A stretch of 40,430 nucleotides of DNA, from contig CALKWG010000528.1 of assembly GCA_938004315.1 (NCBI GenBank), positions 1 to 40,430 on the forward strand, in the 5' to 3' direction. Every line of letters begins with the position of its first letter. The stretch's first letter is position 1. Positions 14,751 to 35,807 of this stretch are shown here, one piece after another. The notes under the pieces were generated by a model. That model had not been told where the DNA came from. It saw only the letters and a list, made by a program, of their open reading frames with translations, and did not search any database. The stretch is from an uncultured Spirochaetaceae bacterium (GTDB taxonomy: Bacteria; Spirochaetota; Spirochaetia; Treponematales; UBA12059). Made by a program: the position numbers and the translations under genes.

Positions 14751-16151
14751 ATGTCGCTTAACTGGAACGAGATAGATAGGGTCTTAGGCGAGCTGGATCT
14801 CGTCGGGGCCCAGCTGCAGCGCATCGCGCAGCCCTCGTACGACACGCTCCTCTTGTCCTTCTATAAGCCGGGCAAGGCGACCGAGCTCATGATCTGCGTG
14901 GCGCACGGCGCCTGCCGCCTGCACGCCACGAAGCTGGCCCTGCCCAAGGCGCCCAAGCCCCAGCGCTTCACCGAGCTCCTGCGCGCCCAGGTCCGCGGCG
15001 CCCGCGTCGAGGCCGTCGGGCAGCTGGGCGCCGAGCGCATCGTCCGCCTGCGCATCGGCCGCGACGAGGGCGAGCGCCTCCTGTACGCTAGGCTCTGGTC
15101 AAGCGCGGCCAACGTGATACTCACCAAGCCGGACGGGACCATCGTCGACGTCCTCACGCGGAAGCCCTCCAAGGGCGAGCTCGCCGGCGGCCGCTACGCG
15201 CCGGAGGCCGGCCCCGCCCCCGACAAGGCCTTCCCGGCGCGCGATTTCCCCGGCGAGGGTAGCTATAACGAGCGCGTCGACGCCTACTACGCCGAGCACG
15301 GCTCGGAGCTATCGCGCCAGGCCCTCCTCGAGCGGGCCAAGAAGCATTTCGCCTCGAAGCGGGCGTCTATAGAGCTCCGCGTCGCCTCCCTCGAGAAGGC
15401 GCTGGCGGCCTACGCCGAGCCCGAGCGATTGAAGGAGCTCGGCGACATACTCATGGCCAACCCCGCCGGCCCCGTCGAGCGCTCCTGCGTCCGAGCCGAC
15501 GATTTCTACCGCGGCGGCTCGGTGATCATCCACGTCGACGAGAAGAAGAGCGTCGTCGAGAACGCCAAGGACTATTACGAGAAGGCCAGGAAGGCCCGTT
15601 CGGGCCTCGCCGACGCCCGCGACGAGCTGGCCGAAGCCCGCGCCGCCCTGGCCGAGCTCGCGGCCGAGGAGCGGGCGATCGAGGCGGAGGAGAACCCCTA
15701 CCGCATCCGAGCCTACCTGGCCAAGCGGCGCACGGCGCCGGCCGAGGCGCCCAAGCGCTACCCGGGGCTATCCCTCGAGCTGGACGGCTGGCTCATCCTG
15801 GTCGGCCGCTCGGCCGCCGAAAACGACCAGCTCCTACGCCGGTACGTCCGCGGCAACGACCTATGGATGCACGCGCGCGACTACGCCGGCTCGTACGTCT
15901 TCGTACGAGCGCGGGCGGGTAAGAGCTTCCCCCTGGATATTATGCTGGCGGCCGGCAATCTGGCGCTGTACTATTCCAAAGGCCGAAGCTCGGGCTCGGG
16001 GGACCTCTACTATACCCAGGTGAAGTACCTACGACGCGCCAAGGACGGCCCCAAGGGCCTCGTGATACCCACGCAGGAGAAGAATCTGCGCGTCAAGCTC
16101 GACGAGGATCGCCTGCGCGCTTTGAAGCGGCTCATTGGCCGCGAGGACTAG
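14751..16151 (+). CDS. NFACT-family protein (RqcH / fibronectin-binding-protein A-like)
   Basis: A 466-residue NFACT protein. In bacteria RqcH binds stalled 50S-peptidyl-tRNA complexes and adds C-terminal alanine tails that mark nascent chains for ClpXP or similar proteases. The N-terminal NFACT-N domain (about 1-190) is followed by a long charged coiled coil (about 195-320). The NFACT-R domain follows (about 335-450), with GWLILVGRSAAENDQLLRRY, DLWMHARDYAGSYVFVR and a YYSKGRSSGSGDLYYTQVKY block. It is shorter than B. subtilis RqcH, so a reduced helical region is likely; whether it is tailing-competent is not decidable here. It begins three bases after secA and ends facing clpC. Its genomic company (ClpC, McsA, FtsH) fits protein quality control. 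Confidence 0.9.
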   Translation: MSLNWNEIDRVLGELDLVGAQLQRIAQPSYDTLLLSFYKPGKATELMICVAHGACRLHATKLALPKAPKPQRFTELLRAQVRGARVEAVGQLGAERIVRLRIGRDEGERLLYARLWSSAANVILTKPDGTIVDVLTRKPSKGELAGGRYAPEAGPAPDKAFPARDFPGEGSYNERVDAYYAEHGSELSRQALLERAKKHFASKRASIELRVASLEKALAAYAEPERLKELGDILMANPAGPVERSCVRADDFYRGGSVIIHVDEKKSVVENAKDYYEKARKARSGLADARDELAEARAALAELAAEERAIEAEENPYRIRAYLAKRRTAPAEAPKRYPGLSLELDGWLILVGRSAAENDQLLRRYVRGNDLWMHARDYAGSYVFVRARAGKSFPLDIMLAAGNLALYYSKGRSSGSGDLYYTQVKYLRRAKDGPKGLVIPTQEKNLRVKLDEDRLRALKRLIGRED

Positions 16152-16187: not shown

Positions 16188-18701
<2,514 letters not shown>

Positions 18702-18704
18702 CGC

Positions 18705-19787
18705 CTACCCCTTGGCCGGCTTGAGCCTGGCCGCCGCGTCGCGTAGGAGGCGCGCGCGTTCGGCCGCGTCGCCGCCTTCCGAACTCGGGCCCGCCTCGAC
18801 ATGAGGTCCCGCCCCGGCCTCGGACGCGCCGTCCGGCCGCGATCCTCTGGCCATACGTAAAGATAGCCATAATTCGGCGGTCTCGGCCATGCCGAGCCCC
18901 GTTAATAATCCGCAGGACAAGCCCAGGCGCAGGGCCGAGACGAGCTCGTCCGCCTCGTCGCGCCCCAGGAGCAGCGCCTCCCGCGCGACGCCGTAGGCGC
19001 GCCCCACGAGGTCGCCGAGCTCCAACGCCCGCCGCTCGGCGAGCTCGGCACGGGCCCGTCGCTCGTACTCCGCTATCAAGGCCGCGCTCCTCTGCAGGCG
19101 CTCGAGGGAGGCGGCCTCCGCTTCCCGATAAGCCTCCGGCAGGGCTAAGGAGTACGCGGAGCCGGCGCTCGTCTGCCTGGCGCTATAGGCGCCTTCGATG
19201 ATGAAGCCGGCCTCCAAGGCCTTCCTAAAGACGCCGTCGAGGAGGCCGGCCATAGAGAGCCCAGGCAGGTGCAGCCTGACCCAGGCGGCCAGGCCGCTGC
19301 CGCAGCGCAGGGCGTCGGCCTGCACGTAGCCGGCCTCGGGATCGAAGGCCCAGGCGACCGAAGAGGCCAGCCGGTCGTCGATAGACGAGGCGGCGGACCA
19401 GGGAGTTTCCAAATCCAAGCCGGCGCAGGCGCATGAGATAGCGCAGTGCGCGCCGTCATTGAAGCGTAGCCAAGCGCGCCGACCGGGGTCGAAGGCTAGG
19501 AGGCGCCCATCGTCCATTAAATAGGCGCGCGAGGCGACGCCCCGTTCGGCCGCGGCGTCGCGGCCGGCCTGCCCGAGGGAGGCGGCGGCAGAGAGCGTTA
19601 GCCCGGCGCAGGCGGCGGCCTCGGCCAGCTCGCCGGCCGCGGCGCGCGCTTCCTCCGCACTCGCCCGCCAGGGGAAAGGATAGCTCGCTAAATTTCTATC
19701 GAGGCGCACGGTCGACTCGATGGCTACGTCGTCGTCGGGAGCCGGAAGGAGGGGATACGGCGAGAGCGCGGGGGGGAGGCCCGTCAC
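18705..19787 (-). CDS. McsB-like protein, probable catalytically dead protein-arginine kinase (pseudokinase)
   Basis: The 360-residue protein aligns by eye along its whole length with McsB, the arginine kinase that tags proteins for ClpCP. Landmarks are IESTVRLDRNLASYPFP (residues 23-39, for SSRIRLARN), RFNDGAHCAISC (108-119, for NEEDHIRIQ), DALRCGSGLAAWVRLHLP (158-175, for SCPTNVGTGLRASVMMHLP) and EGAYSARQTSAGSAY (198-212, for RGIYGEGSEAVGNIF). At these sites the catalytic Glu pair, the active-site Cys, the second catalytic Glu and several ATP-binding Arg residues are replaced. The C-terminal RDxxRA phosphoarginine-docking motif also appears as DAAERA. The reading frame is intact. It starts with a GTG overlapping the mcsA stop (GTGA) and lies between mcsA and clpC, so it is expressed but likely an adaptor or regulator. 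Confidence 0.82.
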   Translation of the reverse strand: MTGLPPALSPYPLLPAPDDDVAIESTVRLDRNLASYPFPWRASAEEARAAAGELAEAAACAGLTLSAAASLGQAGRDAAAERGVASRAYLMDDGRLLAFDPGRRAWLRFNDGAHCAISCACAGLDLETPWSAASSIDDRLASSVAWAFDPEAGYVQADALRCGSGLAAWVRLHLPGLSMAGLLDGVFRKALEAGFIIEGAYSARQTSAGSAYSLALPEAYREAEAASLERLQRSAALIAEYERRARAELAERRALELGDLVGRAYGVAREALLLGRDEADELVSALRLGLSCGLLTGLGMAETAELWLSLRMARGSRPDGASEAGAGPHVEAGPSSEGGDAAERARLLRDAAARLKPAKG

Positions 19788-20212
19788 GAACCGGCCTCCA
19801 CGTCGGGACAGCCTAGGCCGGAGCGCAGGAGGTCGCGCAGGGCGGCCGCGCGCTCAAAGTCCTCGGCGGCGACGGCGGCCGCCAGCTCGGCCCGGAGGGT
19901 ATCGGCCTCCGGCGAAGGGGCGCGCGGCCCGGAGCCGGGCACCTTGCCGGCGTAGGAGGCGGCCCTCCCGCCGCGCCGCCACTGCGCGACGAGCTCCCGA
20001 CGTAGCGAACCTACGCAGACGGGGCAGCCAAGGCGCCCCTGCCTCCTTAGGCTCTCCGCGTCCAAGCCGCAGCGCGGGCAGCGCGAGGCGGCGGATTCCG
20101 CCTCGTCGCCGAGCTTAGCCAGGCAGTCTGCGCAGAGGCGGGTATATCCGTGCCGGGCGTCGAGGCTGACGAGGTAGCTGACGCCTTCGCGGCCGCAGGA
20201 ATCGCAACGCAT
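19784..20212 (-). CDS. mcsA: McsA-like zinc-finger/UVR protein, ClpC regulator
   Basis: A 142-residue protein with four CxxC pairs: C3/C6, C27/C30, C45/C48 and C63/C66, as in McsA, the zinc protein that activates McsB and binds ClpC. The family phrases GRLGCPVC and Y.GK.P are present, followed by a linker and a C-terminal UVR motif (about residues 106-138, ELAAAVAAEDFERAAALRD). All zinc ligands appear intact, in contrast to the degraded McsB homologue that follows. ATG 20212 (MRCDSCG) is chosen so the first zinc knuckle sits at the N-terminus as in relatives; a TTG at 20230 is possible. It heads the mcsA-mcsB-clpC operon; no CtsR box or CIRCE element is visible upstream. Confidence 0.88.
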   Translation of the reverse strand: MRCDSCGREGVSYLVSLDARHGYTRLCADCLAKLGDEAESAASRCPRCGLDAESLRRQGRLGCPVCVGSLRRELVAQWRRGGRAASYAGKVPGSGPRAPSPEADTLRAELAAAVAAEDFERAAALRDLLRSGLGCPDVEAGS

Positions 20213-20372
20213 GGTTATGAGTATAGGCAAAACGGGCGGATTACGAAAGGCCGCCGACGCCTGCCGGCGATGGGAGCCGGCGACGGGGTCCGCCGGCGGG
20301 AGGCCGCGCGCGGGCCGGAGGCCAGGAATAGACGTTTTTCGTTAATTTTTACCCGATTACACCCAGCTCGTC

Positions 20373-31983: not shown

Positions 31984-33920
31984 ACGCGGCGCGCGATTAG
32001 TCGGCGAGGATTTCAGCCAGGTACTCGTCGCCGACGCGTATGAGCGCGTAGCGTAGCCCGTCCCGGTGGTAGCTGCCCGGCGGCGGCGGATTCGGGCCTA
32101 GGTCGAAGGGCTTGCGTCCTATCCAGCGGACGCGACCGCCTGCATCGGCTATAAGACCTTTACTCTCCCCGCCGACGCGCAGCTCGACGAGCCGACCGTC
32201 CCGGTAATAAGCGGCCAGGGGCGGCGCGTCGCGCCAGCTGGGGCTCAGGCCCCGGCGCTCGCGGCCGTCGGGCAGCTCCTCTATGGTGAAGTCGGGCGCG
32301 CCGTCCCCGTCTAGGTCCCAGGAGCGGAGGAAGGGGGCGGCCAGAGTCTCGCGGTAATCGAACAGGCCGTCGCCGTTCGTATCGACCTCGAGCAGCGGGG
32401 CGGCGGACGAGCCGGGGGACGGCCAGCGTTTCCTAGCCTCGACGCGGCCGTCGCCGTCGGCGTCGATCTCCTCGATCCGCGGCCGGCCGTCCTCGTAGCG
32501 TCGATAGCCGCGCGAGCCGCCCGCGTCGATCCAATGCAGGCCGACGGGCAGGCCGTCGTCGAGCGTGGCGTTGAGCACGGTCGATCCGGCCTTCTCCTCT
32601 ACGCGGAAGGCCGCCCCGGCGAGGGATCGCTCGGCGGGGAAGGCCAGGCCGCTCGGCCGTATGAGAGCCGGGCGGGGGGCCCCGGCCGGACGCGGGCCCT
32701 CGCCGAAGGGCTCGAAGATCAGGGCCTCGTAGCGGTAGGCGACGGGCCCGAACTGATAGCGGCGGGAGGAGCGGGCGTCGGCCATCCGGACGGCCAGCGC
32801 GAAGGGCCAGCGGCCGTATTCAATAGCGGCCTTGACCGAACCGGCGACGAGCTCGACTGCGCTCGGCTCGCCGGCTTTGAAGGCCGCGCTCAGCTCGGGC
32901 CGCCCGTCCTGGTCGGCGTCGAGGGCGTAGGCTACCGGCAGCCCCGCCTCATAGCGGGTATAGGCGTCGGGAACGCCGTCTCGGTTCGCGTCGTCGTAGA
33001 CGAGGCCGCCGTAGGAAGCGAAGGCGGCAAGGAAATCGGCGCGCGCGTCGTCGTCGGGAAGGAGGCGCCAAAGCGTTCTGATATCATCGCTCGCGACGAA
33101 CCCGGCGGAGAAGAGCTCGGCGACGGCCGAGGAGGGGCTTAAGAGGCCGTATTCAAGGGCCAGGACCGAGGCCAGCGGATCGCTTCCGCCGTTGGCCCGG
33201 TATTCGCGCAGGAGGAGCCTAGCCTCGCCGGCGTCGTAGGCGTAGGGGACGAGCGCCAGGACCAGGCCGGGCTCGATGTCGCGGAGGCTATCGAGCGAGT
33301 CGAAGGCCCTAGCGACGAGGGCGGCGTCGGCCGGGTCGGAGGCCAGGGGCTCGCCTCGCTTAAGCCAGGCGACGAGGGCCCGCGGATCGAAGGGCTCCGC
33401 GCGCATCGATCGCTCGACGGCCGAGCGGGCGTTGGAGCGGTCGCCCAAGGCCATCCTCGCCCGGGCCTCGATATAGAGCGTAGCCGCGTCGCGGGGCTTG
33501 GCTTGGATGAAGCGCAGGGCTTGATCGGGGCGCCCCGTGTCGACCAGTACGGAGGCGTAGAGTATCTCGGCGTCGTCTCGCCGATATAGCTCGAAGTTGG
33601 AGGCGGCGAAGGCTTCGGCCAGGAGCTCCTCGACGAACCGGGCCGGCTCGCCGTTCGCCCTGGCCAGGACGGCGCGGAGGTATCGGGCGTCCGAGGATTG
33701 GTAGCTCAAGGCTAGCGCCGCATCGGCGAGTCGGACGGCCTCGGCCGGATAGCCTAAGGCCAGGTAGTCCCGCGCCGCCTCGACGTAGGAGCGGACGGCG
33801 GGCGCGTAGCGGGCGGCCTCGGCCGCGCCGGCCGGCCGCCCCTGGGCGAAGGCTCCGGCCGCCGGGAGGGCGAGCGCCAGGGCGACGGCCGGCAGTACGA
33901 GGATGGGGGGCCTTCGAGGC

Positions 33921-35807
<1,887 letters not shown>

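Follow-up and report, generated by a model that had tools for sequence, protein, structure and literature searches.

Does a gene that lies between mcsA and clpC, in the place of mcsB, still encode a protein arginine kinase when the signatures of its active site have been replaced, and if not, what might its product do? The question arises from a stretch of 40,430 nucleotides from an uncultured Spirochaetaceae bacterium (contig CALKWG010000528.1; hereafter the window), in which a first-pass annotation had recognized a full-length mcsB frame in the order mcsA-mcsB-clpC. The coordinates hold, and the three genes form one tight operon (Table 1). The profile and structure comparisons proposed at that stage agree with the family assignment: the frame matched PF00217 at 53.3 bits (cut-off 22.4), residues 6-306 matched solved McsB structures (E 8e-27), and the top-ranked matches of its AlphaFold model (pLDDT 82.8, with low confidence at the McsA-docking/Cys loop, residues 149-162, and at the lid, residues 201-206) were McsB, so that homology to McsB protein arginine kinases and their fold were found across the whole protein. 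Scores against the NCBIfam McsB equivalogs were below the cut-offs (140 bits versus 385 and 114.8 versus 500), which is a weak criterion alone, since the complete-looking spirochaete McsB of loci L121 and L280 also fall below. The window McsA matched McsA in the PDB (8wtb_B, E 3e-9 over residues 47-136) and UVR (PF02151), with its CxxC motifs read from the translation, and reached 40 bits with the NCBIfam McsA model (cut-off 210). The window ClpC matched ClpC/MecB in the PDB (3j3s, E 6.5e-252) and contains Clp_N, AAA_2, UVR and ClpB_D2-small domains. No CIRCE element was found upstream of mcsA at up to 5 mismatches, and there was one weak match elsewhere.

Table 1. Genes of the mcsA-mcsB-clpC operon in the window.
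Feature	Position	Strand	Remarks
McsA homologue	19784..20230	minus	four CxxC motifs, UVR motif; 4-base overlap with mcsB
McsB-family pseudokinase	18705..19787	minus	360 aa, GTG start
ClpC unfoldase	16188..18701	minus	begins 3 bases after mcsB stop

The roles of active-site residues in McsB are assigned in part by analogy with arginine kinase. The arginine cluster of that enzyme consists of R124, R126, R229 and R280, and the role of the McsB cysteine is described for Cys157 of Staphylococcus aureus (both from the available text of PMC12467219). Aligned with Bacillus subtilis McsB, whose numbering was taken from the 8wtb chain and anchored on R337 and D338 (PMC8370763, in the part available), the window protein has the replacements that the first-pass annotation had listed. 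NEED reads NDGA at residues 110-113 (N119-E-E-D122 = N110-D-G-A113), the Cys of CPTN is Asp (C167 = D158), the Glu of GEGSEA is lost (E212 = A203), and the Arg residues of LRASV and RGIYGEG are Ala and Glu, respectively (R176 = A167, R207 = E198). Two further ATP arginines are changed (R125 = A116, R29 = T26). The catalytic Glu pair, E121 and E212, is consequently absent (G112, A203), as is the catalytic Cys, and only one of the five ATP-phosphate arginines (R29, R31, R125, R176 and R207) is kept, R31 as R28. RDxxRA reads DAAERA, so that the phosphoarginine receptor R337, D338, R341 reads D, A, R. N119, H123 and Y210 are kept in addition to R31 and R341. Judging from these residues, it is very probable that the window McsB has lost kinase activity.

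A protein homology search, in which the 8000 candidates with the most shared words were scored, found ten proteins, one of them the window's own. E121 and C167 were absent from all ten, the nine others being 40-89% identical to the window McsB, and two of them (P0005 and P0006) are labelled 'protein arginine kinase' yet lack both residues. All eight residues were kept in 60 of 60 controls, the 30 best-scoring loci each of Planctomycetota and Verrucomicrobiota, a choice showing that the method reads intact sites and not that these phyla are free from loss. Because all ten proteins (down to 40% identity) share the loss of E121 and C167 and the same kind of alignment reads every control as complete, a sequencing or alignment accident is excluded; the first-pass annotation had argued against alignment error from the loss at every signature. 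An alignment scan of contigs gave twelve loci, eight from spirochaete metagenome-assembled genomes and four from a Verrucomicrobiales bacterium, two planctomycetes and one further bacterium; three of these four are catalytically intact and one (L011) is partly altered, while none of the eight spirochaete loci has E121 and C167 together. Intact relatives at the same locus, named at the outset as evidence against a pseudokinase, gave a mixed picture: all three catalytic residues are kept in 8 of 194 spirochaete loci and in none of the 11 loci of the window clade, where L007 still has E121. By residue content, this shows loss at this locus and not an intact enzyme.

Across the phylum, PF00217 matched in 241 of 392 spirochaete genomes, with a single match in 239 of the 241; absences in this search need caution, as its built-in control matched 0 of 14 control genomes, Bacillus subtilis included. 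B. subtilis has McsB (PF00217) and CtsR genes, and the copy in the control set may lack the ctsR-mcsA-mcsB-clpC stretch. The 194 loci read comprise the McsB of 188 positive spirochaete genomes, five further relatives and the window; they were chosen by listed coordinates, best scores first, with the weakest matches under-sampled and 53 positive genomes outside the reading. E121 is kept in 56 of these loci, C167 in 29 and E212 in 17; 29 have both E121 and C167, 8 have all three, 132 have none, and only L121 and L280 combine all three with the five arginines. The 165 loci in which E121 and C167 are not both kept include fragments and unreadable positions. A gap or unread base falls on at least one of the three catalytic positions in 35 loci, and the 159 fully readable loci keep 0, 1, 2 and 3 catalytic residues in 101, 28, 22 and 8 cases, respectively. 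Outside the catalytic trio, H123 is kept in 193 loci, E251 in 191 and R341 in 189. For one typical pseudo-form, L098, the 120 of 560 matches listed include relatives annotated as 'hypothetical protein [Treponema sp.]' and others as 'protein arginine kinase'. A second, intact McsB covering for the pseudokinase was considered and rejected, given the single PF00217 matches in nearly all positive genomes and in each of 8 close-relative genomes, where no second McsB was seen (the window's own genome was outside this search). Two genomes (G143 and G206) had two PF00217 matches each, the pieces read from them being a fragment at a contig end and a sequence that contains unread bases. The window-family profile gave two matches in 8 genomes (G011, G091, G143, G206, G300, G322, G326 and G365). 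One McsB homologue (L279, in G326) has an internal stop codon, possibly a recent gene loss.

The history of these losses was examined in a main tree of 62 selected rows from which the catalytic columns had been removed; the pseudo or intact label was taken from the residues, and an earlier tree had already been seen before the tree test. In this tree, which was built without the low-scoring Verrucomicrobiota loci described below, the spirochaete rows form one group (support 99/98). The spirochaete pseudo-forms are not one clade: the log-likelihood is 169 lower if they are held together (AU p 3e-81), and the starred branches force at least five changes between the pseudo and the intact state. 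Change counts alone cannot tell gain from loss, and the changes are read as losses because it is implausible that a complete site was regained several times; active-site loss, as recorded in the residues, thus recurred within Spirochaetota.

Verrucomicrobiota also have a low-scoring McsB tail (L346-L365): in 24 of the 141 positive genomes the match scores less than about 150 bits, and 20 of these were read. The 20 loci, from the 24 lowest-scoring matches, are degenerate, with E121 in 5, C167 in 2 (L354 and L355), E212 in 3 and all three residues in none, and they are likely an independent origin of pseudo-McsB. When this tail was added to the tree, the window group moved beside it on long branches and spirochaete unity was not rejected (AU p 0.48); a true sister relationship between the window clade and these pseudo-forms was set aside as possible long-branch pull.

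The operon has largely been retained around the altered gene. An McsA-like frame lies directly upstream in 128 of 133 pseudo-loci (accepted at E up to 1, a permissive cut-off), ClpC lies directly downstream in 111, and both are present in 107, compared to 16 of 16 intact loci for each neighbour and for both. In 127 pseudo-loci, the number of CxxC motifs in McsA is four in 111 and two in 14, and a UVR-like motif is present in 108; all 16 intact loci show four CxxC motifs and the UVR-like motif. The 22 pseudo-loci without clpC directly downstream, one of which ends at a contig end, mean that a ClpC role of pseudo-McsB may not be universal. L202-L204 and L206-L218, a group of spirochaete genomes, have mcsB mostly with mcsA, no clpC directly downstream and mostly their own YSKISIYR and SNEH signatures; in this group the McsA/McsB system may have left ClpC.

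The first-pass annotation had found both pocket glutamates for phosphoarginine, E32 and E108, in the window ClpC and had considered their presence beside a dead kinase puzzling. The glutamates are indeed present. Of 111 ClpC N-domains encoded next to pseudo-McsB, 3 are gaps and the 108 readable ones all have E32 and E106; next to intact McsB, all 16 have E106, and E32 is present in 13 and replaced by Asp in the other 3. Both glutamates are also found in chloroplast ClpC1 and in other ClpC1 chains, which we take to be mycobacterial, and to our knowledge plants have no McsB. The puzzle is therefore weaker than stated, since chloroplast ClpC1 keeps both residues and the pockets serve other contacts, being resting-state contacts and MecA docking sites according to the portion of PMC12583610 available. 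For the same reasons, retention of the glutamates is no proof of phosphoarginine use, and we did not accept it as a sign of another arginine kinase. Such a kinase may nevertheless exist in general, as phosphoarginine sites have been reported in mycobacteria, for which the available text of PMC9604228 gives no known McsB homologue.

Other parts of the phosphoarginine pathway were looked for as well. A search of 24 spirochaete genomes, including 8 whose McsB is better preserved, found no CtsR, a weak result in that the control matched Lactococcus lactis but missed B. subtilis. A YwlE-type loop (CTGNTCRSP, in which we take Thr to mark YwlE), searched as a DNA pattern that captures exact loops only, occurred in two of the 392 genomes; these, G020 and G044, are the genomes of L121 and L280, respectively, the only complete McsB in the set read. 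The McsB of G044 was read after its YwlE hit, the two genomes are sister lineages (McsB 43% identical) and hence represent one coincidence rather than two, and 27 of the 29 loci with E121 and C167 lie in genomes without the loop; the coincidence of YwlE loop and complete McsB is only suggestive. NCBIfam gave no YwlE model for the two YwlE-loop candidates. Low-molecular-weight phosphatase matches in 19 of 24 genomes (the 24 include G098, whose McsB was outside the reading) were rejected as arginine phosphatases, as their loops are by inspection mostly arsenate-reductase-like or tyrosine-phosphatase-like. L121 with L282 (G020) and L280 with L281 (G044) are the strongest candidates in Spirochaetota for a functional phosphoarginine system.

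If the window protein is not a kinase, it could be a decaying, functionless gene kept by linkage to clpC, which would fit its fast, uneven evolution on long branches and the stops inside the matched stretch in three listed spirochaete matches (G139, G313 and G326). Its relatives, however, are under purifying selection. Among the 45 lowest-dS pairs, 44 pseudo pairs have dN/dS of 0.06-0.23 (62-97% identity; pairs overlap and are not independent), compared to 0.04 for the single intact pair, and L004/L005 of the window clade gave 0.19, these values being taken from relatives of the window gene. Synteny extends across the phylum, and H123, G132, G162 and E251, outside the catalytic set, are among the residues invariant in 133 of 133 pseudo-loci, which makes decay the least probable of the readings considered. 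Lineage-wide catalytic loss under purifying selection, the mark of an McsB-derived pseudokinase, was found in the ten proteins, the trees and the dN/dS of relatives; loss of catalytic and ATP residues, retained fold and operon, selection and recurrence can all be read in the sequences. Conservation of the nine catalytic/ATP columns falls from 0.86 in intact to 0.38 in pseudo-forms, a difference partly built in, because the groups are themselves defined by two of these columns. The McsA-docking loop is conserved at 0.56 versus a domain average of 0.40 in pseudo-forms, and at 0.78 versus 0.59 in the window clade; in S. aureus McsB this loop binds the McsA zinc finger (PMC12467219). Because the loop stays above the domain average while the catalytic/ATP columns fall to it, docking of McsA seems to have been retained despite the loss of the Cys that McsA orients. 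It is highly improbable that the protein is an active but strongly rebuilt arginine kinase using other residues, such as the clade-specific D158 or the RCGSG motif. The window clade does show clade-specific conservation next to the former site (C162 in at least 90%, and G163 and W146-A-F-D149 in all, of 18 aligned proteins; invariant substitutions relative to B. subtilis in the 11 loci include Y155>W, N158>D and Q250>Y), and the ClpC pocket glutamates are kept; but the two Glu and the Cys have been lost together with four of the five phosphate-binding Arg, we know of no other guanidino-kinase solution, and the lost columns vary widely in residue across the phylum (S, D, E, N and A at C167), as under relaxed constraint.

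We consider it likely that the window gene encodes an McsB-family pseudokinase that keeps the McsB fold, dimerisation domain and McsA-docking loop and acts as an adaptor or restraint, and a ClpC-side role with McsA is, overall, its likely function. Such a pseudo-McsB would transfer no phosphate to arginine; together with McsA it would most likely serve ClpC(P) as an adaptor or restraint that needs no phosphorylation; the McsA zinc thiols would sense stress and pseudo-McsB would bring the complex to the ClpC N-domain, hold the client, or both. The first-pass annotation had likewise proposed an adaptor or regulator without kinase activity, and its pseudokinase half is upheld by residues, relatives, fold and selection. 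Like the absence of kinase activity and the binding of McsA and ClpC, we infer the adaptor half, here from retention of the operon and of McsA and from conservation of the docking loop; as membership evidence for a predicted ClpC adaptor there is the operon neighbourhood. A kinase-free McsB adaptor is without precedent in B. subtilis, where the adaptor role needs kinase activity according to the available part of a review (PMC5506225). The same review reports that McsB freed from oxidised McsA removes CtsR from DNA kinase-free, and the main rival accordingly makes pseudo-McsB and McsA a partner switch that responds to redox state or stress and targets a protein other than ClpC, such as a repressor. 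The four CxxC motifs kept in most McsA and the mcsB genes without adjacent clpC in L202-L204 and L206-L218 would suit this role, which we consider unlikely given that clpC adjoins most pseudo-loci, that CtsR was missing from the 24 genomes (with the weak control) and that no substitute target is known. A more far-reaching version of the ClpC-side reading, which we regard as unlikely, is that phosphoarginine degradation in Spirochaetota was replaced several times by a phosphorylation-free system in which McsA and pseudo-McsB, as a built-in ligand, occupy or gate the ClpC phosphoarginine pockets, the old site of the window clade being rebuilt as a conserved pocket for another ligand.

MecA belongs to a different protein family from McsB. 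The likeness of pseudo-McsB to MecA and other kinase-free ClpC adaptors would lie in the proposed role, binding the ClpC N-domain and feeding or restraining it without phosphorylation. From the McsB protein arginine kinases of B. subtilis, Geobacillus and S. aureus (PDB 6tv6, 6fh1, 8gqd and 8wtb) the window protein differs in lacking E121, C167, E212, R29, R125, R176, R207, R337 and D338. Bacterial serine-threonine pseudokinases have similarly lost catalytic residues while keeping fold and conservation, but belong to a different kinase superfamily; in the available text of PMC12599244, McsB is named in the reference list. No description of a catalytically dead McsB or of a spirochaete McsB was found among the open-licence PMC papers surveyed. 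Evolution seems to have separated adaptor function from kinase repeatedly, and pseudo-McsB makes the effect of McsA-McsB on ClpC without phosphoarginine directly testable. These findings also indicate that a 'protein arginine kinase' label may be mistaken, as for P0005 and P0006, and that arginine phosphorylation cannot be assumed in spirochaetes, where pseudo-McsB is probably a non-enzymatic partner of the ClpC protease.

Additional features were observed in the window and its relatives. In the window clade, WAFD (residues 146-149) and, in most members, RCGSG (161-165) adjoin the dead site and may mark a new binding pocket. An NFACT (RqcH-like) gene of 466 aa (window 14751-16151) is convergent to clpC, and the placement of ribosome quality control beside ClpC may exceed chance. 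Further along (window 31997-33991), a 664-aa frame with no Pfam match at E 0.001 lies between an FtsH-like gene and a chemotaxis cluster.
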